Assembly: GCF_902499175.1 (NCBI RefSeq)
Contig: NZ_CABVQC010000020.1
Span: forward strand, 1-64,000
Source of the DNA: Burkholderia aenigmatica
GTDB lineage: Bacteria > Pseudomonadota > Gammaproteobacteria > Burkholderiales > Burkholderiaceae
Length of the DNA: 64,000 bases
Reading direction: 5' to 3'
In this document: positions 52,106 to 63,004 of the stretch, in pieces
Layout of the letters: the number at the start of each line of letters is the position of its first letter
Numbering within the stretch: the first letter of the stretch is position 1
Made by a program: the position numbers and the translations under genes
Notes under the pieces: model-generated
The model's input: the letters and a program-made list of their open reading frames with translations, nothing else
Databases searched by the model: none
Told to the model about the DNA's origin: nothing

Positions 52106-53494
52106 TTATGCCGCCAGCCGGGCACGCTGCATGCTGAGTGCCGACACCGCGGCGCCGGCCAACTGAACGGCTGCGCCGGCGAACATCGCCGCACGCAAGC
52201 CGGCTGCACCGCCGTGCGCGGCCGCGAACAGCGTGCCGAGTACCGCGATGCCGAGCGTCGCGCCGGTCATGCGCGCGACGTTGACGAGCGCGCTCGCGGT
52301 GCCCGAACGCGCGGCGTCGACCGCCCCGACGGCGACCGTCATCAACGGCCCCGTCGCGATCCCCATGCCGAGCCCCGTCATCGCAAGCCCGAGTTCGGCG
52401 CCGAGCAGGCTCGACGAACCGGCCGACGCGCCGATCGCGCCGAGCCCGCTCGCGATCAGTCCGACCCCGCCGGCCGTCGTCGCACGTGAGCCGATGCGCT
52501 CGGACAGCGGCCCCGACCACGGCGATACGACGACGAACACGAGCGCCATCGGTAGCAGCGCGAGGCCCGCGCCGGTCGAATCGAGGCGGCCGGCGCCTTG
52601 CCAGTAGAGCGGCAGCAGGAACAGCACGCCGTACATTCCGAACGTCATGCCCGAGGTCGCGGCGATCGCGCCGCGAAACGCGCCGATCCGGAAGAGTTCG
52701 AGCGGCACGAGCGCGGCCGCGCCGTGACGCCGTTCGATCGACACGAATGTGGCGAACGCGGCGATCGCGACGCAGCCCGCGAGCACGCATGCGGCCGGCG
52801 AATCGCGGAACACGATCGCCGCATACGCCAGCGTGCCGAGCACGAGCGCGCCCGTGACTTGTGCGCCGACGTCGACGTGCCGGCCGCGCGGATCGGACGA
52901 CTCGGGCACCGCCGGGATGGCAAGCAGCATCGCGGCGATGCTCAGCGGCACGACGACGAAGAAGATGCTGCGCCAGCCGAAGTGCCGGATCAGCACGCCG
53001 CCGAGTGTCGGGCCGATCGCCATCGCCGCGCCGTTGCAGGCGGCCCAGATGCCGAGTGCGCGGCCACGCTCGACCGGGTCGCGCCACACCACCCGCACGA
53101 TCGCGAGCGACGCCGGGAGCAGCAGCGCGGCGCCGACGCCGGCCAGTGCGCGGGCGGCGATCAGCACCGGCACCGAAGGCGCGAGCGCGCACAGCAGCGA
53201 CGCGACGGTGAAGAGGGCCGTGCCCGCGATGAAGATGCGGCGCCGGCCGTGCAGGTCGGCGAGCAGCCCGCCGGTCAGCAGCAGCACCGCGTACGTGAGG
53301 TTGTAGCTGTCGACGACCCATTGCAATGCGCCGACGCCCGCGTGGAAATAGTCGCCGATCGCACGCGTCGCGAGATTCACGACGGCCGTGTCGACCTGCG
53401 CGACGAGGACGGCGAGGCAGAGGGTCAGCAGGGTCATGCCGCGCCGCTTGACGACGCGGCCGGCGAGCGCGGAAAGTTCTCCGGTGTGAGCCAT
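52106..53494 (-). CDS. DHA2-family MFS transporter
   Basis: The 462-residue membrane protein has about 14 hydrophobic segments and the family motifs QVDTAVVNLATRAIG, GGLLADLHGRRRIF, RALAGVGAALLLPASLAIV and AIGPTLGGVLI. It is probably a proton-coupled drug or metabolite exporter of the inner membrane. ATG 53494 (MAHTGELS) starts before the first helix. No regulator is divergent to it. It marks the last conventional gene before the AT-rich patch at 54,340. Confidence 0.85.
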   Translation of the reverse strand: MAHTGELSALAGRVVKRRGMTLLTLCLAVLVAQVDTAVVNLATRAIGDYFHAGVGALQWVVDSYNLTYAVLLLTGGLLADLHGRRRIFIAGTALFTVASLLCALAPSVPVLIAARALAGVGAALLLPASLAIVRVVWRDPVERGRALGIWAACNGAAMAIGPTLGGVLIRHFGWRSIFFVVVPLSIAAMLLAIPAVPESSDPRGRHVDVGAQVTGALVLGTLAYAAIVFRDSPAACVLAGCVAIAAFATFVSIERRHGAAALVPLELFRIGAFRGAIAATSGMTFGMYGVLFLLPLYWQGAGRLDSTGAGLALLPMALVFVVVSPWSGPLSERIGSRATTAGGVGLIASGLGAIGASAGSSSLLGAELGLAMTGLGMGIATGPLMTVAVGAVDAARSGTASALVNVARMTGATLGIAVLGTLFAAAHGGAAGLRAAMFAGAAVQLAGAAVSALSMQRARLAA

Positions 53495-54439
53495 GGGCGG
53501 TGTTCTTGAGCGGACGATCATGCGAGCTTAAGCGCCGCCTGCTGCCAGCGTGGTGTCAGCAGGGCAAGGGCAGCCGACGCGCAATCGGCATGCATGTATG
53601 CTCGGTGCGCGGAGCAGGAACAACGGGCCTTGAGCCCCCGGTTCTCGCCTGATTCAACCAACCCGCGCAAATAGCCGCCGACGGCCTCCCGTCAATCGCC
53701 GGCGCACTCGCATCGATGGCGGGGTCGCATTGCAGCGCCGCGACGCCATACTGCAACGGGACCACGCAATGCACGATTGCCTGGATGAGTTTGGTCTACC
53801 GTGTCACACCCATTTTCGAGAACGCCGCACGCAAATGCGAACGCGCGGGGCTATGGCGGATCGGCATCGTTTCGGCTGCATTCTGCAGCGACAACGCTTG
53901 CGTCAGATGCAGCACGAGCGATGCCTCGCGGCGGGTTCAGCTTGAACATGGCCTGCAGCGTCTCGTCCGAGACCTGCGGCCGGCAATCGGAATCGCGTCC
54001 CCAGGAAGACGGGTGCGGCGCTTGCGGCCCGCTTGCTCGTCGATCGGCGGCGGCCGCACGAGCGGCCCAGCCGTGCGCGTCCGGCGCGTCGCGGACCAGC
54101 GCGTGCACCGTCCGCGGGTTCGCGGCGCCGTCGCACGCTAGCCAGCCGTCGGCAAAGCGCGAGCCTCCACGTTTTTTAATCGGGACGGTCGGATTGGCCG
54201 TCGCGGAGCAGGCGTCGGCACGACCAGTGGGCCGGAACGATTGCCGTTGCGATCCCGAAAACCATTCCGCTATCGGATTGATGAATTCGCTCGCTTTATC
54301 GCTATCAGCATACTAAGAGCACTGTCGGCAATGCGGAATTGCGATGACCAGCTCCGCATGTCGCCAAGTTTTCGAAGCTGGCCATGGAGTTCATTCGGCT
54401 GAGGGTTTCTATTTAGTACGTGTCCTAGTGCTCATTTTG

Positions 54440-54452: not shown

Positions 54453-54500
54453 ATTACCGATTAAATCTAAAAATTAAAATAAAATTCGCCGATTCGTGCA

Positions 54501-54529
54501 TTGACGCATTGCTTCCTCGAAAATAGAAT
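54501..54529 (+). promoter_or_regulatory. Candidate sigma70 promoter of the AAR/PP-loop/export operon
   Basis: TTGACG (54,501-54,506) and TAGAAT (54,524-54,529) are separated by exactly 17 bases. Transcription would start near 54,536, leaving a leader of about 207 bases. Confidence 0.55.
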
Positions 54530-54612
54530 CCATCGCCAATCTAGGAAGTTTTTGCTTCGTCCGGGGTTTCCCTTCCCTGCATCGCACGTCTCAATTGACG
54601 ATGGCGAGCCGC

Positions 54613-54630
54613 TCCGCCTTGCGGATTTTT
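54613..54630 (+). terminator. Possible attenuator hairpin in the operon leader
   Basis: TCCGC (54,613-54,617) pairs with GCGGA (54,621-54,625) around CTT, and TTTTT (54,626-54,630) follows directly. The stem is only 5 bp but has a proper T-run, so premature termination in the leader is possible. Confidence 0.35.
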
Positions 54631-54742
54631 CCCTGGTTGAATCGTATTCGGATTATCGGTTTATTACGTCTGATCGAATTGATGGATTAATTCTGGATGG
54701 ATTTGTCGTGCCCATTCAAATTTTAATGATGGAGGCGCACCA

Positions 54743-55996
54743 ATGGATGCAAGAAAAGAATCCCGGGCTGCAACGGCATCGAATGTCTATTTTGGTCCTT
54801 CCGCGCAGAGAAAATGGCTGAGGCGCGGTGCGCCGCGCGACGTGGACGTCGTTCTGCTGACTCATCCGCGCGATAGAGCCGATGTCGAGCGGATGTTTCC
54901 GTGGGCGGGAATGCTCGATGGCGACGCACTCGCTGATCTGCTGGACTGTCTGCAACCCGTCTACGGCGAGATCATCGAGGCGAAAGGCATCAACATCGGA
55001 ATCCTCTTTTTGCCGATTCTCGCGGAAGACATGATCGATCCGAGAAAGCGTGCATCGAGTCGCAGTCGCATGGAGACGGAGGGATTGACCAAGGCGGCCG
55101 CGATGGGCGCACGACATGTCTGCCTGGGCGGGCTGACCGGGGCGCTGACGAATTACGGCCGCCGCATCGAAGCGCGTTCGAAGGAACTCGGTATCGAATT
55201 GACGACCGGCCATGCGGTGACGTCGGTCTCGATCGTCCGGCAGTTCGACAAGGCACTGTCCGAGTCGGGATTGAGCGGTGGCGATGCGGTCCTCGCCATC
55301 CTTGGCGTTGGCAGCGTGGGCGCGGGGGTGGCCAGGCTGCTGGCGCACTCGCCTCGGGCCACGCGACCCGCGGAGCTGATCCTCGTCGACACGCTGCAAC
55401 AGCAGGACAGGGTTCGCGCGATTGCAGACGAAGTGATGGCATATTCATCGATGCGGGTATCGGTTGAGGTGCTTCCGACGCGTTACGCGTTGCCGGATGG
55501 CAGCCGCTGCTATCGCGATGCCAATGTAATCGTCAGTGCGGTCAGCACGCCGTCCATCCTCGATATCGACCTCGTGCGCGCCGGCACGATCCTGATCGAC
55601 GACAGCCAGCCTTATTGCTGGGATCGCAACGCAGCGTGGGCGCGCGTGCAGGCACGTGGTGACATCCTTCCGTGTGATGCAGGGCTTGTCGATGCAGGTG
55701 CGACCGCATATCGGTCGTTCTTTCCGTTCGATTTCGCCGACGATGTCGGAAACGGCAGCGTCGTCTCATGGTCGTGCCTGGCCGAGGGGATGTTGCGCGC
55801 CAGCCTGCCGCAACTCGCAAGCAATATCGGCGAGGCGGATGTGGCACAACTGCTGGCCTACGAGCGCGCGTTCGATAAGGTGAAGTTCGGAATTCCGCCG
55901 CTCCAATGCGGAAGGCATGTGCTGGATGTGGCCGCTTTCCGCCGTTTTCTGCGCGATGCGGACGGATCGTCCGGCGAGCGAGGAGGCCGTTCGTGA
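54743..55996 (+). CDS. Long-chain acyl-ACP reductase (AAR)-like protein
   Basis: The 417-residue protein resembles cyanobacterial fatty acyl-ACP/CoA reductase. Matching points are VVLLTHPRDRADVERMF near the start, CLGGLTGALTNYGRR, ELTTGHAVTSVSIVRQ, the Rossmann motif GVGSVG (residues 188-193), NVIVSAVST with ILIDDSQP, and Cys345 in SWSCLAEGML, which aligns with the catalytic cysteine of AAR that forms the acyl-enzyme. The expected reaction is reduction of a long-chain acyl-ACP or -CoA to an aldehyde using NADPH. GGAGG lies 7 bases before ATG 54743. It is the first gene of the operon and overlaps the PP-loop gene by 4 bases. Such reductases are unusual in Burkholderia. A related NAD(P)-dependent activity is the alternative. 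Confidence 0.65.
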   Translation: MDARKESRAATASNVYFGPSAQRKWLRRGAPRDVDVVLLTHPRDRADVERMFPWAGMLDGDALADLLDCLQPVYGEIIEAKGINIGILFLPILAEDMIDPRKRASSRSRMETEGLTKAAAMGARHVCLGGLTGALTNYGRRIEARSKELGIELTTGHAVTSVSIVRQFDKALSESGLSGGDAVLAILGVGSVGAGVARLLAHSPRATRPAELILVDTLQQQDRVRAIADEVMAYSSMRVSVEVLPTRYALPDGSRCYRDANVIVSAVSTPSILDIDLVRAGTILIDDSQPYCWDRNAAWARVQARGDILPCDAGLVDAGATAYRSFFPFDFADDVGNGSVVSWSCLAEGMLRASLPQLASNIGEADVAQLLAYERAFDKVKFGIPPLQCGRHVLDVAAFRRFLRDADGSSGERGGRS

Positions 55997-57201
55997 AGAC
56001 GATTCCGATTTATCGAGGATGCAACCGTTGCGGGATGCCGTTGCATTACGACGCGCTGATGAATGGCACCGACGTCGACAAGACCGTGGCGTCGGCGCTA
56101 TGCGCACACTGTTCGCGCATGCAATCCGATCGGCGCCCCGAATACGAACGGGATGCCGATCACGAATGGTTGCTCGATGCGATTATTTCCAGCGCCCACG
56201 GCGAACGAACCTGGCGTCACAAGGCGCTCTCGGCGGCGAAACGCTTGCCGATTGTCGGTGACGGCAGTCTCAGGACGGCAGCCGCCATGCTCGATTCGAT
56301 TCCGGCCCGCGAACCGCGTTCGACGTATTCCGCGATGGTGCTCTACAGCGGCGGGAAGGACAGCACCTACATGCTGGTTCAACTGGCGGAGAAAGGGTTG
56401 AATGTTTGCGCGTGGATGCTGGATCCCGGTTACCAGTCGCCGCAAACACTCGAGAGTGCGCGGCGCGTCACCGCCAAGCTCGGTATTCCGCTTGTGATCG
56501 AACGTCCGGATAAAGCGCTCACGGATGCGCTGTTCCGATCGGGATTTTCGATCGACGGGAATTCGGATGTCGATCTACAGAAGGGAGCCATGACGTACGG
56601 CTCCGCGTGCTGGCCGTGTTTTTCGCTGATCGCGGTCAGCGCGAGCGCCTTCGCGAATCGCCATCGCATTCCGCTCTGCTTCATCGGCACGCAGAAAGGG
56701 CAGAACCGGTTGAATCTGGAAGGTGCGGGCGTGTTGTCTGCGCAAGCGTTGCCGAAGGTCAACGATCTCGTCGCCAGGTTCGTGCAGCCGTTCCGCAAAG
56801 CGATCCCGGATCACGCGGCTTCGCTCGAAGCGGATCCCGACGACATCGGGTTTCCGACCGTGCTCGTGCCGTACTACGAACTCATGCGCAAGCCCGAGCG
56901 GGAGATCCAGATTGCGCATATCGAGCGATATGACTGGATCCTGCCGAAAAATACGGGCGCATGTAGTTCGAATTGCATGATCAACGAGTTGGGCCGGGCC
57001 GTCATGCGTTCGAGATTCGGTTTCGATCTGTATCAGGTCATTGACGCGAACGAACGTCGGCTCGGGTACGCCCCGGATCAGGCCGCCTCGGGCTTGCCCG
57101 ATCCGGCCATCGTGCGTCTCGGCGCTACGATGCTCGGCTTGAGTGAGCAAGAGGCCGCCGAACTTGGCGTGAAGATTAGACAGGATAGTCACGATGCGTA
57201 A
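55993..57201 (+). CDS. Cysteine-rich PP-loop ATPase (N-acetyl-sugar amidotransferase-like)
   Basis: The 402-residue protein has an ATP-pyrophosphatase P-loop SGGKDST (residues 119-125). The N-terminal part carries two CxxC pairs (Cys10/Cys13 and Cys37/Cys40), a likely zinc ribbon, and CWPC (Cys206/Cys209) plus Cys324/Cys328 follow. The layout resembles WbpG/LegG-type amidotransferases, which adenylate a carbonyl and transfer ammonia, and more broadly PP-loop enzymes that insert sulfur or nitrogen. No glutaminase subunit or sugar genes are nearby. GTG 55993 has AGGAGG 6 bases upstream. It overlaps the next gene by 8 bases. The substrate is unknown; an acyl or aldehyde product of the upstream reductase is one possibility. 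Confidence 0.65.
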   Translation: MKTIPIYRGCNRCGMPLHYDALMNGTDVDKTVASALCAHCSRMQSDRRPEYERDADHEWLLDAIISSAHGERTWRHKALSAAKRLPIVGDGSLRTAAAMLDSIPAREPRSTYSAMVLYSGGKDSTYMLVQLAEKGLNVCAWMLDPGYQSPQTLESARRVTAKLGIPLVIERPDKALTDALFRSGFSIDGNSDVDLQKGAMTYGSACWPCFSLIAVSASAFANRHRIPLCFIGTQKGQNRLNLEGAGVLSAQALPKVNDLVARFVQPFRKAIPDHAASLEADPDDIGFPTVLVPYYELMRKPEREIQIAHIERYDWILPKNTGACSSNCMINELGRAVMRSRFGFDLYQVIDANERRLGYAPDQAASGLPDPAIVRLGATMLGLSEQEAAELGVKIRQDSHDA

Positions 57202-58408
57202 TCTGAGCGAAACCGAGACCTATTCCTTTACCGATCACATTCTGAGCCGCGCCGTCTTCGCGCTGTCGCGCGTCGTGGGCGTGAAGAACATCACGCGGCC
57301 GTTCTGGAATCGCTGGCGGGCTGCACTGTTCGACCAGAACACGCTAGATCGCTTCCTCGCGGCGATGGACGGTCTTTCCGACTGGCCGACGAAAGGCATG
57401 GACTTCCTGCAAGCCGAGATTCGACGGGTCGAGGCGATGCTGCCCGGGGTGTCCGACGACGATGCCATTGCGCACTACCGGCGGTTGTCGTTCCTCGCCC
57501 ATCTGGTCCAATGGGGCTGTCTGCCGCTTTCGGATGCGAAGACGATGGCCTATCGGCACTGTCGAGACTTCTATATCGAGGCCGAACGCCGGGCATTCGG
57601 CGCGCGATTCGCTCGTATGCGCATCGACTGGCAAGGCAAACCGATGTGGGCGAATCTGCATTTGCCGGAGCCGACGTTATCGTCGGGGCCGATTCCGTTA
57701 GTCGTGATCGTGCACGGCATGGACGACGTCAAGGAAGAGCATCTCGCGAGCGAGCTGTTGTTTTCCGAAGCGGGTTTTGCCGTGCTGTGCATCGACGGCC
57801 CGGGGCAAGGCGAAACTTTTCTGCTCGACGGCGCGACGTGGCCGTCGAACTTCGACGAGGCGATCGTCGCGGCCGTCGACGCGTTGAGCGACTATCCGGG
57901 GATTGACACGGAAGGGTATGCCGTTGCCGGTATCAGCTGGGGCGGCATGTGGGCTTACAAGATTGCAGCAGTCGACCCGCGTGTCGGCGCGATTCTCGAT
58001 CTGGGCGGCCCGGTGGATGCGCGCGAATTCAACAAGTTACCTTTCTTCCTGAAAAGCAAGTTTTGCCAGATTCTCGGCATTGCGTCGCTCGACGAGGCCC
58101 GAGATTCGGTCGACCACTTCGCCATCCGCGACGTGACGATGCTCGGAAAGATTCGCGCCCGTGTCCACATCGTTCATGGCGGTCGCGATCCGCTTGTGTC
58201 GGTCGCAGACAAGACATGGCTGCGCGATACCCTGAGCGCGCTCGGGCGAACCGACGGCGTCCAGCTGACGCTGTTCGCCGATGGAGACCATTGCTGCACG
58301 CAATACGTGACGGAAATCCGGCGTGCTGCAGCCGCAGAGTTTTTCGATGCCTACACGCAGCGAATCGGCAGTCGCTGCCAGTCGGGCCATCGCTTGCCGA
58401 CCGCATAA
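57194..58408 (+). CDS. Alpha/beta hydrolase of the export operon
   Basis: The 404-residue protein has a helical N-terminal cap of about 150 residues and then a hydrolase core: VVIVHGMDD, nucleophile Ser248 in GISWGG, Asp332 in HGGRDPLV and His366 in DGDHCC. This is a complete triad of the FrsA/DUF1100-like esterase group. Signal and membrane segments are absent, so it acts in the cytoplasm. It overlaps the PP-loop gene by 8 bases, indicating coupled synthesis. It may release the product from a carrier or trim an ester or amide; this is inference. Confidence 0.75.
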   Translation: MRNLSETETYSFTDHILSRAVFALSRVVGVKNITRPFWNRWRAALFDQNTLDRFLAAMDGLSDWPTKGMDFLQAEIRRVEAMLPGVSDDDAIAHYRRLSFLAHLVQWGCLPLSDAKTMAYRHCRDFYIEAERRAFGARFARMRIDWQGKPMWANLHLPEPTLSSGPIPLVVIVHGMDDVKEEHLASELLFSEAGFAVLCIDGPGQGETFLLDGATWPSNFDEAIVAAVDALSDYPGIDTEGYAVAGISWGGMWAYKIAAVDPRVGAILDLGGPVDAREFNKLPFFLKSKFCQILGIASLDEARDSVDHFAIRDVTMLGKIRARVHIVHGGRDPLVSVADKTWLRDTLSALGRTDGVQLTLFADGDHCCTQYVTEIRRAAAAEFFDAYTQRIGSRCQSGHRLPTA

Positions 58409-58450
58409 GCGTTCATCGCCTACAACCGCGCCACATTCGGTTCTTTCACT

Positions 58451-59416
58451 ATGGAACGCATCACGATCATGCCCCGATGGGTCGGGTACGGCTTCGTTTG
58501 CGCGTGCTTCTTCGCCGCAGGCTGTACCAAGTCGCCTGAAACGTATCACGGCTATGTCGAAGGGCAGTTTTCCTATCTGTCGGCGCCATACTCGGGAAAC
58601 CTGAAGACGTTGCGCGTGGCGCGCGGCGATCGTGTCGAAGCGGGTGCGGTCGTCTTCGAGATCGGCGCGCCGGACCTGGAACAGGCAATCAAGCGCCAGT
58701 ATCACCAGTGGCAATCGTCGCTGAACGTACTCGGCGACCTGGAGCAGGGCAAGCGGTCATCTGAAATCGATACGGTGAAAGCACAGGTCGAACAGGCCCG
58801 GGCGAGCGCTGCCCTTTCAACGCAACGGCTCGCCCGTGCAGAAACCGACTACGCGATACAAGCGATCTCGCGCGATCAGCTCGAACGCGAACGTGCGGCA
58901 GCGCGGGTGGACAAAGCACGGGTCAGCGAGCTCGCCAGTCAGCTGAGGACGGCGCGTTTGCCGGCACGCGACGGTCAACTGCATTCGCAACGACAGACCT
59001 CCGACGCACAGCAGGCCGAATACGAGCGGCTGCAGACGCAATACCGGCAACTGTCGGTGGAGGCCCCCGGCAAGGGTGTCGCCGTCGATACGTTCTTCAC
59101 GCCGGGCGAGTGGGTCGTCGCCGGCAACCCGGTGGTCAAGATTCTGGTCGATCGCAATACGAAGGTGCGCTTCTTCGTGCCTGAGGCCGCGCTGGCCAAT
59201 TTACGCGTCGGTCGTGTCGTGAGAATCACGTGCGACGGCTGCGAGCGCGGCTATACGGCGACGATCAGCCATATCGCGTCGGACGCCGAATATACGCCGC
59301 CCGTCATCTACAGCAACGATGCGCGTTCGAAGCTGGTATTTCTCGTCGAGGCGCGGCCCGATACCGTTGCCGCGCGCGGGTTGCATCCCGGCCTGCCGAT
59401 CGAGGTGAGGCCATGA
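58451..59416 (+). CDS. HlyD/MFP-family periplasmic adaptor lipoprotein
   Basis: The 321-residue protein has a lipoprotein signal ending FAAGC. The body is a membrane-fusion protein: beta-barrel and lipoyl-like start (YVEGQFSYLSAPYSGNLKTLRVARGDRVEAGAVVFEIG), a long coiled coil (about residues 95-195), then VEAPGKGVAVDTFFTPGEWVVAGNPVVKIL. It links an inner-membrane ABC exporter to an outer-membrane channel. ATG 58451 or 58469 could be the start. It overlaps the ATPase gene by 4 bases. Confidence 0.85.
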   Translation: MERITIMPRWVGYGFVCACFFAAGCTKSPETYHGYVEGQFSYLSAPYSGNLKTLRVARGDRVEAGAVVFEIGAPDLEQAIKRQYHQWQSSLNVLGDLEQGKRSSEIDTVKAQVEQARASAALSTQRLARAETDYAIQAISRDQLERERAAARVDKARVSELASQLRTARLPARDGQLHSQRQTSDAQQAEYERLQTQYRQLSVEAPGKGVAVDTFFTPGEWVVAGNPVVKILVDRNTKVRFFVPEAALANLRVGRVVRITCDGCERGYTATISHIASDAEYTPPVIYSNDARSKLVFLVEARPDTVAARGLHPGLPIEVRP

Positions 59417-60339
59417 ATCATGTGATGCCGCTGATCGATGTGCGCGATCTGAACAAGCATTTCGGCACACGGCACGTCGTCAAGAACTTGAGCCTGCAGG
59501 TCGGCCGCGGCGAGATATTCGGCTTTCTGGGCCCGAACGGGAGCGGCAAGACGACCTCGTTGCGCATGATGTGCGGACTGCTGACGCCGGATTCCGGTAG
59601 CGGAACCTGCCTCGGATTCGACATCCTGACGCAATGCCGGGAGATCAAGCGACGAGTCGGCTACATGACGCAGCGTTTCTCGTACTGGGAAGACCTGACG
59701 GTGCGGGAGAACCTCGACTTCGTCGCGCGACTGTATGCGATCGACGCGCGAAAGGAGCGCGTCGCGCGGATCCTCGCCGAGATGGGCCTGGAGTCGCGCG
59801 CGAACCAGCTCGCCGGCTCGTTGTCGGGCGGCTGGAAGCAGCGCGTGGCGCTTGCCGCTGCGCTGTTGCAGTCGCCCGAACTACTGCTGCTCGACGAACC
59901 GACGGCCGGTGTCGACCCGGGCGTGCGCAGGGTGTTCTGGGAGGAACTGCACCGTCTGGCGGCCCGCGGCGTTTCGGTGCTCGTCAGCACGCACTATATG
60001 GACGAGGCCGAACGTTGCCACAAGCTGGCCTACATCGCGTACGGCACGCTGCTGGCACACGGCGAGGTCAGTGATCTCGTGCGGCGACACGCGCTCCATA
60101 CCTGGTCGGTGTCAGGAGGCGATCTCGTCCGGCTGAACGACCGGCTCAAGGGCCGGCCGGGCGTCGAGCAGGTGATTGCGTTCGGTCGTGCGCTGCACGT
60201 ATCGGGACACGACGAGGTCGTGCTCGCGGCGAGTCTCGCAGCCGTCTGCGGCGATGGTGTCGAGCTTCACAGAATCGCGACGAATATCGAGCACGTTTTC
60301 CTGCATTTGATGAAGGACGCACCCGGGGAGCCTCGCTGA
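59413..60339 (+). CDS. ABC transporter ATP-binding protein (ABC-2 export type)
   Basis: The 308-residue ATPase has Walker A GPNGSGKTT (residues 40-48), signature LSGGWKQR (137-144), Walker B LLLLDE (157-162) and the H-loop His in STHYMDEAE. The DrrA/YbhF-like architecture with a C-terminal extension fits drug or lipid exporters. ATG 59413 overlaps the adaptor stop. It energises the permease encoded 2 bases downstream. Confidence 0.9.
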   Translation: MNHVMPLIDVRDLNKHFGTRHVVKNLSLQVGRGEIFGFLGPNGSGKTTSLRMMCGLLTPDSGSGTCLGFDILTQCREIKRRVGYMTQRFSYWEDLTVRENLDFVARLYAIDARKERVARILAEMGLESRANQLAGSLSGGWKQRVALAAALLQSPELLLLDEPTAGVDPGVRRVFWEELHRLAARGVSVLVSTHYMDEAERCHKLAYIAYGTLLAHGEVSDLVRRHALHTWSVSGGDLVRLNDRLKGRPGVEQVIAFGRALHVSGHDEVVLAASLAAVCGDGVELHRIATNIEHVFLHLMKDAPGEPR

Positions 60340-60341
60340 TC

Positions 60342-61472
60342 ATGACCGGATTCTCGATTTCCCGCTGGTGGAGCATGGTGACGAAGGAATTCCTGCAGAT
60401 CCGCCGCGATCGCGTCACGCTGGGGATGATCGCAGTGTTGCCGATCGTGCAGCTGGCGCTGTTCGGTTTTGCGATCAACAGCGATCCTAAGCATCTTCCG
60501 GCGATCGTGCTCGCCGACGACGCAAGCGAATTTTCGCGATCGCTCGTCGCCGGCATGCGCAATACAGGCTATTTCGATATCCAGGGCGGCCAGTTTTCCG
60601 AACGGGCGGCTCGTGACGCGCTGCAAAAGGGCACCGTGCAGTTCGTGGTGAGCGTGCCGTACGACTTCTCGCGACGACTGGTGCGCAACGAGCATCCGGA
60701 AATTCTGGTCGAGGCGGATGCGACCGATCCCGCTGCAACGGGAAATGCGATCGCCGCGTTCAATACGATGACGCAGACCGTGTTGAACAAGGATTTGACG
60801 GGAGCCCTGGCGACAACCGCGCCATCGCAAGCATTCTCGGCCCGCGTGCACAGGGTCTACAACCCGGCCGGCATAACGCAGTACAACATCATTCCCGGCT
60901 TGATGGGCGTCATCCTGTCGATGACGATGGTCATGATGACGAGTCTCGCCATCACGCGTGAACGTGAACGTGGAACGATCGAGAACATCCTCGCGTCGCC
61001 GGCAACCTCGATCGAGGTGATCAGCGGAAAGATCGTGCCGTACGTCCTGATCGGCCTTCTGCAGTGCACGATCATCCTGCTGGCGGCACGATTCGTATTC
61101 AGCGTGCCGTTTGAAGGCAATCCGGTGACGGTCTACTGCCTCGCGTCGTTGCTGATCGTCGCGAATCTGATGGTCGGCATCGCCATCTCGTCGGTCGCAC
61201 GGAACCAGTTGCAGGCGATGCAGATGACGTTCTTCTATTTCCTGCCGAGCGTCCTGCTCTCCGGATTCATGTTCCCGTTTGCAGGCATGCCGAGCTGGGC
61301 GCGGCTGCTAGGCAACGGATTGCCATTGACTTATTTCAACCGGGCCATCCGGGGCGTCCTCCTGAAGGGGAGTGGATGGAACGAAGTATGGCCCGATGCC
61401 GCGACGATGACCGTTTTCGCGCTGGTTGCAATGACGGTCGGCCTGCTCGCTTACCGAACCACGCTCGATTGA
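60342..61472 (+). CDS. ABC-2-type transporter permease
   Basis: The 376-residue protein has an N-terminal helix after RWWSMVTKEFLQIRRDR, a large extracytoplasmic domain, and five C-terminal helices (VILSMTMVMMTSLAITRERERGTIENILASP to FALVAMTVGLLAYR). RERERGTIE is characteristic of the YbhS/YbhR and DrrB-like ABC-2 family. Only one permease gene is present, so the channel is probably a homodimer. It starts 2 bases after the ATPase gene. Confidence 0.9.
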   Translation: MTGFSISRWWSMVTKEFLQIRRDRVTLGMIAVLPIVQLALFGFAINSDPKHLPAIVLADDASEFSRSLVAGMRNTGYFDIQGGQFSERAARDALQKGTVQFVVSVPYDFSRRLVRNEHPEILVEADATDPAATGNAIAAFNTMTQTVLNKDLTGALATTAPSQAFSARVHRVYNPAGITQYNIIPGLMGVILSMTMVMMTSLAITRERERGTIENILASPATSIEVISGKIVPYVLIGLLQCTIILLAARFVFSVPFEGNPVTVYCLASLLIVANLMVGIAISSVARNQLQAMQMTFFYFLPSVLLSGFMFPFAGMPSWARLLGNGLPLTYFNRAIRGVLLKGSGWNEVWPDAATMTVFALVAMTVGLLAYRTTLD

Positions 61473-61478
61473 ACGACG

Positions 61479-62948
61479 ATGGCACAACGAACACCTGTCG
61501 GCCGCCGTGCTCGCCGCACGATTGCGGTCCTGCCGATCGCGGTTGTCATTCTCGCGGTGCAGGGGTGCAGCCATCCCGCGTTTACCCCGCGATCCGCGAG
61601 CGAGCTGGCATTGCCTGCCACCTTCATGGGAATGAGCGCCGGGTCGACCGATCGCGATGACGCGACCGTGCACGGCGAACACGATCCGCGCTGGTGGCGG
61701 CGCTTTGGCTCCCCGGCGCTGGACGCACTCGTCGAGCAGGCGATGCAGGACAATCCGTCCATACGGAGCGCGGAGTCGCGGCTACTCGAAGCGACGAAGT
61801 ATCTTGCGGGACAACACGGTGCCAGTCGCTATCCGCAGGTGGACGTCGGCGCGTCGGCCAAAAGGGAGCAGTTGAATACCGCAGCCGCCGGCCTGCCGAT
61901 GATTCCGAACCCATCTCCGTTCATGCTGTACAACACGAACGTGAACGTCCGATACGACTTCGATTTGTTCGGCGCGCAGCGTCATCGGGTCGAAGCGAAA
62001 CGGTATGAAGCCGCTCTGAGAAAGCATCAGGCCGACGCTGTACGCCTGACACTGGCCAGCAACATCATCGCTGCGGTGGTCCGGGAAGGGCGGCTGCGCG
62101 ACGAAATCGAATTGAACGACGCCGTGTTGCGGAATCGGCAAGCGGTTCGGCAGATGCTGCGCGAACGGCATGAAATCGGCAGCGTCGCGTATCGGGAAAC
62201 GATCGACGGCGATTCCGACGTCGATCGAATCGAAGCGGAACGGGCGGCATTGCACACGGAACTGCAGCAAATCCGGTTTCAACTCGCGGTCTACGCGGGC
62301 GTGCCGTCGCCCGAGTCGCTGCCGCGGTTTCGTTCGAGCGATTTGCAGTTGCCGCAAAACCTGCCGTCGATCGTTCCGTCGGAACTCGTGCGTCGACGGC
62401 CCGACATCCTCGCAGCGGAGTCGAGCCTGCATATTGCGGGCGAACTGGCCGGTGTCGCCACGGCAAACCTTTACCCGCGGATCGAACTGAGTGCGAGCAT
62501 CGGGTCGTCGCCGCTGGTGCTCGGCCAGTTGTTCGCCGGCGGCACGACGATCTGGAATATCGGTGCCCAGCTCAGCGCACCGGTTTTTCACGGTGGAGAA
62601 TTGCGTGCGGCGCGGGATGCGGCGGTCGCGGCTTACGATGCCACGTTCGAGGACTACCGGAAGGTCGTGCTGGGCGCGTTGCAGAGCGTCGCCGATGCGC
62701 TGACCGAAATCGATCGCGATGCAACCGCGCTGCAGGCCCGTAGCGCGGTCGCGCAACGGCAACAGACCGTTCTCGACATGACCCGGCGCCAGTTCGCGAA
62801 CGGTAGTTCGGATCGGCTTCGTGTGCTGCGCGACGAGTATGCATACGACCTGGCGCGGCTCGAGGTAACGCGCGTTCGCGCGGCCAGGATGGCCAGTACG
62901 GTTTCGTTCTTTGCCGCCGTCGGTGGCGATGCGTATCGTCCGGATTGA
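61479..62948 (+). CDS. NodT-family outer-membrane efflux lipoprotein
   Basis: The 489-residue protein has a lipoprotein-type N-terminus (VVILAVQGCS) and the two-repeat TolC-like structure of the NodT/OprM group: WWRRFGSPALDALVEQAMQDNPSI, SELVRRRPDILAAESSLHIAGELAGVATANLYPRIELSASIG, and a second helical half. It forms the outer-membrane channel for the adaptor and ABC pump. It starts 6 bases after the permease gene and ends the operon before a convergent terminator. Confidence 0.9.
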   Translation: MAQRTPVGRRARRTIAVLPIAVVILAVQGCSHPAFTPRSASELALPATFMGMSAGSTDRDDATVHGEHDPRWWRRFGSPALDALVEQAMQDNPSIRSAESRLLEATKYLAGQHGASRYPQVDVGASAKREQLNTAAAGLPMIPNPSPFMLYNTNVNVRYDFDLFGAQRHRVEAKRYEAALRKHQADAVRLTLASNIIAAVVREGRLRDEIELNDAVLRNRQAVRQMLRERHEIGSVAYRETIDGDSDVDRIEAERAALHTELQQIRFQLAVYAGVPSPESLPRFRSSDLQLPQNLPSIVPSELVRRRPDILAAESSLHIAGELAGVATANLYPRIELSASIGSSPLVLGQLFAGGTTIWNIGAQLSAPVFHGGELRAARDAAVAAYDATFEDYRKVVLGALQSVADALTEIDRDATALQARSAVAQRQQTVLDMTRRQFANGSSDRLRVLRDEYAYDLARLEVTRVRAARMASTVSFFAAVGGDAYRPD

Positions 62949-63004
62949 CTGCACGTACGCCGAACGGGACGCCGGAGTCGGCGACCGCCGGGGCGCTGGC
63001 CCGA

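Follow-up and report, generated by a model that had tools for sequence, protein, structure and literature searches.

A seven-gene operon encoding three enzymes and an export line

We analyzed a 64,000 nt stretch of the Burkholderia aenigmatica contig NZ_CABVQC010000020.1, hereafter the window, in which seven open reading frames (ORFs), all on the + strand, span positions 54743-62948. The first three encode a reductase-like protein, a PP-loop enzyme and a hydrolase (genes 1-3, hereafter the trio), and the other four encode an export line (genes 4-7):

54743..55996, + strand: gene 1, carrier-thioester reductase-like, distant kin of acyl-ACP reductase (AAR; ACP, acyl carrier protein) and PigE, 417 aa
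55993..57201, + strand: gene 2, PP-loop (AANH) enzyme, 402 aa counted from GTG 55993
57194..58408, + strand: gene 3, alpha/beta hydrolase, 404 aa
58451..59416, + strand: gene 4, periplasmic adaptor, HlyD-type
59413..60339, + strand: gene 5, ABC transporter ATPase, RbbA/NodI/DrrA-like
60342..61472, + strand: gene 6, permease, ABC-2 type
61479..62948, + strand: gene 7, outer-membrane efflux protein, NodT subfamily (303.3 bits against a cut-off of 210.05)

An earlier note on this DNA had described seven tightly coupled genes, and its coordinates and spacing were reproduced: the successive junctions are -4, -8, 42, -4, 2 and 6 nt, given the starts GTG 55993 for gene 2 and ATG 59413 for gene 5. Although the longest ORF of gene 2 opens upstream of this GTG, at 55906, the start was taken as 55993 because the earliest start codon in the corresponding frame of P. 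bryophila lies at that position. The HlyD, ABC_tran, ABC-2 permease and OEP/NodT assignments of genes 4-7 were clear in the family libraries.

The trio is kept in order across phyla

Genes 1-3 are adjacent and in the same order at nine loci, four of them in Burkholderia, two in Streptomyces and one each in Paraburkholderia, Paludibacterium and Frankia. These are the window, L002-L008 and L025, among which L002 is P. bryophila, L003 B. ambifaria RZ2MS16, L004 Burkholderia sp. MS389, L006 S. niger and L007 S. cyaneus. The co-occurrence of the three enzyme genes in other genomes, on which the earlier note had let its proposal depend, was thus found. Eight loci came from a gene 2 scan of 84,980 species (24 pattern matches), which relies on exact peptide patterns and detects close relatives only. 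The whole trio stands in order in 7/8 of them (L002-L008), and L009 from Amycolatopsis decaplanina has gene 2 only, with no gene 1 match in that genome at E ≤ 1e-5.

Gene 2 was also searched by profile, with E ≤ 1e-20 as the threshold, in overlapping genome sets, each of which counts its own centre genome. Matches were obtained in 4/65 genomes of the own genus, 5/249 of the family and 1/369 of the class, the last being the own genome, which is 8.9 Mb in size and has a single match. On the actinobacterial side, 2/392 Streptomyces genomes (one of them the centre genome), 1/396 genomes of a draw from the phylum (the centre genome) and 7/230 of the family of the Amycolatopsis genome matched, two of the seven being distant (E 7e-27 and 3e-25). 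Just the centre genome matched in two further sets (1/61 and 1/35), and phage records gave no match to gene 2. The trio is rare and patchy.

Pairwise identity distances, compared between the three enzymes over the nine loci, give correlations of 0.997, 0.989 and 0.992. This fits joint inheritance of the trio, though near relatives among the nine inflate these figures. The mean identities of the proteins of genes 1, 2 and 3 are 0.58, 0.58 and 0.60. Because the gene order is kept across phyla and the distances correlate, the operon is more than a chance assembly. The tree of the nine loci carries a long-branch warning and was used for the co-inheritance figure and the shallow groups only.

Gene 2 carries a cysteine pattern similar to that of CtaC

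We aligned gene 2 in 15 rows comprising nine of A2, five further relatives and one annotated sugar amidotransferase. The PP-loop is intact (SGGKDS at residues 119-124) in 15/15 rows, as is a zinc-ribbon-type tetracysteine, C10/C13/C37/C40, which the available text on LpNASAT describes as the zinc motif of sugar amidotransferases (PMC10607449). By Pfam the protein matches QueC (7.6e-5), and its best curated profile is WbuX (2.3e-8). Against TIGR03573, the N-acetyl sugar amidotransferase model, it scores 33.9 bits, the cut-off being 203.2.

Three further cysteines were considered as a set:

56608..56619, + strand: codons of gene 2 C206-W-P-C209, first part of the proposed three-cysteine set
56974..56976, + strand: codon of gene 2 C328, third cysteine of the proposed set

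C206 and C328 are Cys in 14/14 non-amidotransferase rows and are replaced by Gly and Asp in the amidotransferase row. The C209 column is Cys in 15/15 rows, the amidotransferase row being poorly aligned there. Another cysteine, C324, is missing in the row of a Roseovarius nonribosomal peptide synthetase (NRPS). The spacing is 83 residues from D123 to C206 and 119 from C209 to C328, compared with 77 and 127, from published residue numbers, in the closthioamide thioamide synthetase CtaC. In the available text on CtaC, its C154, C157 and C284 (after D77) matter for thioamidation of a carrier-bound substrate (PMC6772006). On this alignment, the combination of tetracysteine, SGGKDS, CxxC and SxNC separates the gene 2 group from an annotated sugar amidotransferase. 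The earlier note had proposed ATP-dependent nitrogen or sulfur chemistry. The cysteine pattern narrows this to sulfur as the favoured choice, sulfur itself being unproven.

Gene 1 distantly resembles a carrier reductase and gene 3 is an alpha/beta hydrolase

Gene 1 had been called acyl-ACP-reductase-like. A profile search reached PDB 4ppm at 2.2e-9 and 6jzu at 2.1e-4, in keeping with a distant kinship, but membership of the AAR family did not stand, the score against TIGR04058 being 23 bits with a cut-off of 449.7. The PigE model NF053554 gave 61.9 bits (cut-off 850) and matched at positions 65-274 of 837 only. Judged by these scores, gene 1 is distant kin of AAR and PigE, outside the AAR family proper. 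Its closest solved chains are 9e4x/9e4s (phmmer 1.8e-21, profile 7.3e-36), followed by PigE and cyanobacterial AAR. These two chains share cysteines at the positions of gene 1 C292, C345 and C389; they are named 'amino acid adenylation domain protein', by name part of an adenylation-domain protein, whereas gene 1 stands alone. No function for them was found in the literature searched for gene 1 relatives, among the matches listed.

A Rossmann GxGxxG motif occupies residues 188-193 of gene 1, with G188, G190 and G193 in 11/11 rows; C292 and C345 are likewise kept in 11/11 rows and C389 in 10/11. As described in the available text of PMC9594044, C294 of SeAAR accepts the acyl chain before hydride transfer, and the same is proposed for TamH. 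By analogy, C345 is the candidate acyl-accepting cysteine of gene 1, with C292 as the alternative.

Three matches to gene 1 were found among plasmid records: a Streptomyces plasmid (L021), an NRPS-polyketide synthase (PKS) of Streptomyces fungicidicus and a Pantoea stewartii gene adjoining NRPS genes. The NRPS-PKS (L066 9198-20975) has a gene 1-like C-terminal part at residues 3587-3900 of 3925, for which Pfam named no reductase family at E ≤ 1e-5.

The alpha/beta hydrolase assignment of gene 3 is clear (Pfam Hydrolase_4, 8.6e-8). Its nearest solved relative is 2,6-dihydroxypseudooxynicotine hydrolase, 2jbw (phmmer 1.6e-22, profile 1.2e-27); next come AntI, 6hxa, by phmmer, and MHETase, another hydrolase and AntI by profile. 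S248, D332 and H366 are present in 8/8 rows and align with 2jbw, including the DGDHCC position. Presumably both 2jbw and AntI cut C-C bonds next to ketones, and such cleavage would suit a beta-keto chain as the substrate of gene 3. Of the hydrolytic release suggested in the earlier note, the hydrolase stands and the release becomes one possible role.

Fatty-acid genes flank the trio in Streptomyces

Neighbouring genes were called by a simple ORF picker and partly read by eye, and a part of them was tested against family libraries or by BLAST. At the S. niger locus the order is FabH, genes 1-3, ACP, FabF, enoyl reductase and fatty acyl-AMP ligase (FAAL), with a FrsA-like hydrolase on the opposite strand. 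In S. cyaneus, FabH, ACP, FabF and FAAL are 71-83% identical to their S. niger counterparts, a Gln-dependent NAD synthetase replaces the enoyl reductase, and two desaturase-like genes lie further on. The Streptomyces plasmid (L021 18777-22981) carries gene 1, gene 2, ACP and a ketosynthase (KS), and in place of gene 3 a 45-aa remnant similar to its beginning. Because FabH, ACP, FabF and FAAL flank the trio in both Streptomyces genome loci, the substrate is probably a carrier-bound fatty acyl chain. The acyl-carrier substrate assumed at the outset thus gains support from these ACP, KS and FAAL neighbours. The long chain that the earlier note gave to this carrier gains none, as no result bears on its length.

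A proposed pathway and its alternatives

Our preferred reading, held tentatively, is that the trio inserts sulfur on a carrier-bound acyl chain, which would be released reductively as an aldehyde, tailored by hydrolysis and exported. The gene set, its order and conservation, the motifs and the flanking genes are what the sequences show; the chemical steps, the inserted atom and the order of the steps are inferred, as follows. An acyl carrier protein would hold a fatty or beta-keto-acyl chain, the carrier being the cell's own in Burkholderia and the product of a trio-adjacent gene in Streptomyces. Gene 2 would adenylate an oxygen of the chain with ATP and swap it for sulfur, with a putative Fe-S cluster on C206, C209 and C328. 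The chain would then move from the carrier to a cysteine of gene 1, probably C345, and be reduced by NAD(P)H to the aldehyde. Gene 3 may trim or release the product by hydrolysing an ester or a C-C bond, and the HlyD/ABC/NodT line would carry it across both membranes.

We regard as unlikely the broader claim that this is a portable module for sulfur insertion into carrier-bound fatty or beta-keto-acyl chains with reductive release, for example beta-oxo oxygen-to-sulfur exchange via an adenylated enol, yielding secreted thio-lipid aldehydes or cyclised products across Pseudomonadota and Actinomycetota. To our knowledge, no bacterium makes thio-lipid aldehydes or cyclised products of such a kind.

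Several points weigh against sulfur insertion. The family-library test found no ACP or KS gene among the seven operon genes. The best curated profile of gene 2 is still WbuX, and the two have the tetracysteine in common; a single amidotransferase was compared, and the cysteines common to the 14 rows are partly a matter of selection because these rows were found as gene 2 relatives. In gene 1, the C-terminal half gave no alignment to solved AARs at E ≤ 10, so that C345 is unproven as the catalytic cysteine. In Pseudonocardiaceae, gene 2 is found unaccompanied by gene 1 or gene 3. The available text on CtaC reports an enzyme inactive in air, with homologues mostly from anaerobes (PMC6772006), whereas Burkholderia and Streptomyces grow in air. 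Finally, the trio has a Gln-dependent NAD synthetase as its neighbour in 2/9 loci, a possible sign of nitrogen chemistry.

This last point belongs to the main rival, somewhat unlikely in our view, which is a carrier-based module in which the PP-loop enzyme installs nitrogen as an amide, amidine or nitrile, in the manner of sugar amidotransferases or QueC, and gene 1 reduces or releases the chain. The WbuX and QueC matches and the shared tetracysteine speak for it, and so does the Gln-dependent NAD synthetase that adjoins the trio in P. bryophila (L002 9748-11439) and S. cyaneus (L007 14027-15817). The P. bryophila genome has another copy of this synthetase, but in S. cyaneus the gene is the sole genome match at E ≤ 1e-30 and therefore may be a housekeeping gene, and no such synthetase is present in 7/9 trio loci. 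It was dropped as a core gene because of this 2/9 occurrence; it might serve as a resistance copy, act as an enzyme that uses ammonia or, in S. cyaneus, do housekeeping work. The annotated sugar amidotransferase, from Roseovarius, is without C206 and C328 and has HisF- and HisH-type genes nearby, whereas no HisH/HisF-type ammonia supply was found in ten window proteins (the seven genes, the ORF upstream and a single neighbour to either side). The family libraries detected no glutaminase among the seven operon genes.

An improbable alternative is that the product derives from a fatty aldehyde as in the tambjamine and nocuolin pathways, the aminotransferase having been replaced, and that the PP-loop step does something else, such as a mere adenylation or the supply of sulfur to a different enzyme. 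The Streptomyces loci do combine FAAL, ACP and reductase like those of tambjamine and nocuolin in the available text of PMC9594044 and PMC5333925. However, the operon has no aminotransferase, and the conservation of the PP-loop protein matches that of the proteins of genes 1 and 3, so that it is probably central.

The trio is conserved across the nine loci, and the four export genes lie directly downstream of it in 6/6 proteobacterial loci. The Frankia locus and the two Streptomyces loci, of 19-21 kb each, gave no export-gene homologue at E ≤ 0.01, nor any match better than E 1. The complete export line of the earlier note thus holds for the six proteobacterial loci and lies outside the core that these have in common with actinobacteria. 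This distribution, together with the broad families into which the export genes fall, would agree with a multidrug pump of independent origin, placed next to the trio by a single event in an ancestral proteobacterium, the product not being exported. We consider this quite improbable, given that all six loci retain the four pump genes directly downstream and that their spacing in the window is tight.

It is highly improbable that gene 2 thiolates RNA or protein in a housekeeping or stress-related operon: tRNA thiolases belong to its superfamily and 6scy matched at E 0.54, but the occurrence is patchy (4/65 own-genus and 2/392 Streptomyces genomes), gene 2 kin lie inside NRPS-type proteins, and the trio is linked to FabH, ACP and FAAL.

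Genomic setting of the operon and other contexts of gene 2

At 54500-55000, around the start of gene 1, the GC content is 0.53, and the following element was noted:

54501..54529, + strand: promoter-like site (10/12, weak evidence) in an AT-rich stretch upstream of gene 1

Four promoter-like sites were found in the region, 2.7 being expected. The ORF at 54501-54821 was dropped as an eighth gene, as it has no useful family match and its TTG start coincides with the -35-like hexamer; it shows 41-60% identity across 23-114 residues in L002-L004 and L025. The operon has a GC content of 0.621 against 0.682 in the remaining window. GC at third codon positions (GC3) is 0.71-0.81 in genes 1-7 against 0.86-0.89 in the three nearest measured neighbour genes; it is 0.52-0.91 in seven further frames, several of which are not real genes, and 0.67-0.99 in picked frames elsewhere in the window. 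The lower GC and GC3 fit an operon acquired from elsewhere, without amounting to proof.

An EmrB/DHA2-like gene of the major facilitator superfamily (MFS; window 52106-53521, - strand; 209.4 bits, cut-off 230.2) adjoins the operon in 4/4 Burkholderia loci. Two collinear blocks between the window and B. ambifaria RZ2MS16 cover this gene and, together with the aldolase side, the operon; the order MFS-operon-aldolase is the same in G032 (L025), and the match to Burkholderia sp. MS389 spans the MFS gene and the operon and stops at 62990. In P. bryophila, the NAD synthetase and a FrsA-like hydrolase lie downstream of gene 7, the latter with 41-44% identity to the Streptomyces FrsA-like hydrolases. 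This hydrolase was dropped as a core gene, being present in 4/9 genomes searched at E ≤ 1e-10; at the same threshold it was not found in the four Burkholderia and the Frankia genomes, and in Paludibacterium (L048) it lies away from the trio and adjoins an MFS gene (by eye). An ABC-2-like permease gene is located several kb upstream at the S. cyaneus locus (by eye).

Relatives of gene 2 also occur outside the trio. In Pseudonocardiaceae (L009 and L058-L060), gene 2 has as its neighbour a class V aminotransferase gene of PvdN-like type, with 69-100% identity to the L009 copy, and epimerase, glycosyltransferase and P450 genes lie near (by eye). In L061 it adjoins asparagine-synthase-like and PKS-like genes (by eye). 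No homologue of gene 1 or gene 3 was found by tblastn at E ≤ 1e-3 in 16-21 kb of L009 and L058-L063, including L059, L060 and L062, where the ORF picker had missed gene 2 and the absence was retested in this way. Other kin are embedded in an NRPS on a Roseovarius plasmid and in a condensation-domain protein on a Streptomyces plasmid. From these contexts, gene 2 appears to be one branch of a wider PP-loop group, several members of which stand beside or inside natural-product machinery.

Some of these regions have features of their own. On two marine roseobacter plasmids (L022 13292-21340 and L024), the NRPS contains a PP-loop domain with the tetracysteine, CxxC and a third Cys and sits in a polysaccharide-type region; one plasmid also carries a separate annotated N-acetyl sugar amidotransferase (L064). 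The relative at L063 7610-8707 lies amid aminotransferase-, methyltransferase-, methionyl-tRNA-synthetase- and NRPS-like genes (by eye), surroundings that recall the tRNA-synthetase-paralogue peptide clusters in the available text of PMC2922099. Short ORFs of repeated peptide units, such as WVSDRAN in L058, were seen at L058 2308-2604, L059 4805-5077 and L060 5156-5506, near an EamA-type transporter gene (by eye); they may be a DNA repeat instead of a peptide.

Comparison with known systems

The earlier note knew of no described pathway with this set of genes, and none turned up in literature searches aimed at it, among the matches listed; these searches covered mostly open literature and are no proof of novelty. 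As far as the literature searched shows, the compound and the enzymes are uncharacterised.

Among carrier reductases, PigE and TamH are fused with an aminotransferase domain, whereas gene 1 falls below the NF053554 cut-off. The tambjamine (TamA/TamH) and nocuolin clusters share with the Streptomyces loci the logic of FAAL, ACP and acyl-carrier reductase, and they have an aminotransferase where the trio has a PP-loop enzyme and a hydrolase (available text of PMC9594044 and PMC5333925). Gene 3 and its annotated relatives are about 31% identical across 59% of the protein. WbuX, WbpG and LpNASAT have the PP-loop and the N-terminal tetracysteine in common with gene 2 (available text of PMC10607449); the annotated sugar amidotransferase differs in having none of the Cys at two of the three extra positions and in its nearby HisF/HisH-type genes, of which the operon has none.

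The closest parallel is CtaC. The 2019 paper presents it, in its available text, as the first nonribosomal-peptide thioamide synthetase; the enzyme is of the Fe-S PP-loop kind and works on a substrate bound to a carrier (PMC6772006). CtaC resembles gene 2 in the PP-loop and in a CxxC followed, after a similar distance, by a distal Cys, and its cluster, as described there, is like this operon in having no sulfur-mobilising enzyme (PMC6772006). It differs in belonging to a peptide cluster and in needing air-free conditions; the partners of gene 2 are a carrier reductase and a hydrolase, joined in Streptomyces by fatty-acid genes. If sulfur insertion by the trio is true, the operon would be a fatty-acid counterpart of CtaC that dispenses with NRPS and packs a reductase, a hydrolase and an exporter of its own into about 8 kb; thiotemplated sulfur insertion would then reach as far as lipids, and genome mining would gain a compact handle.

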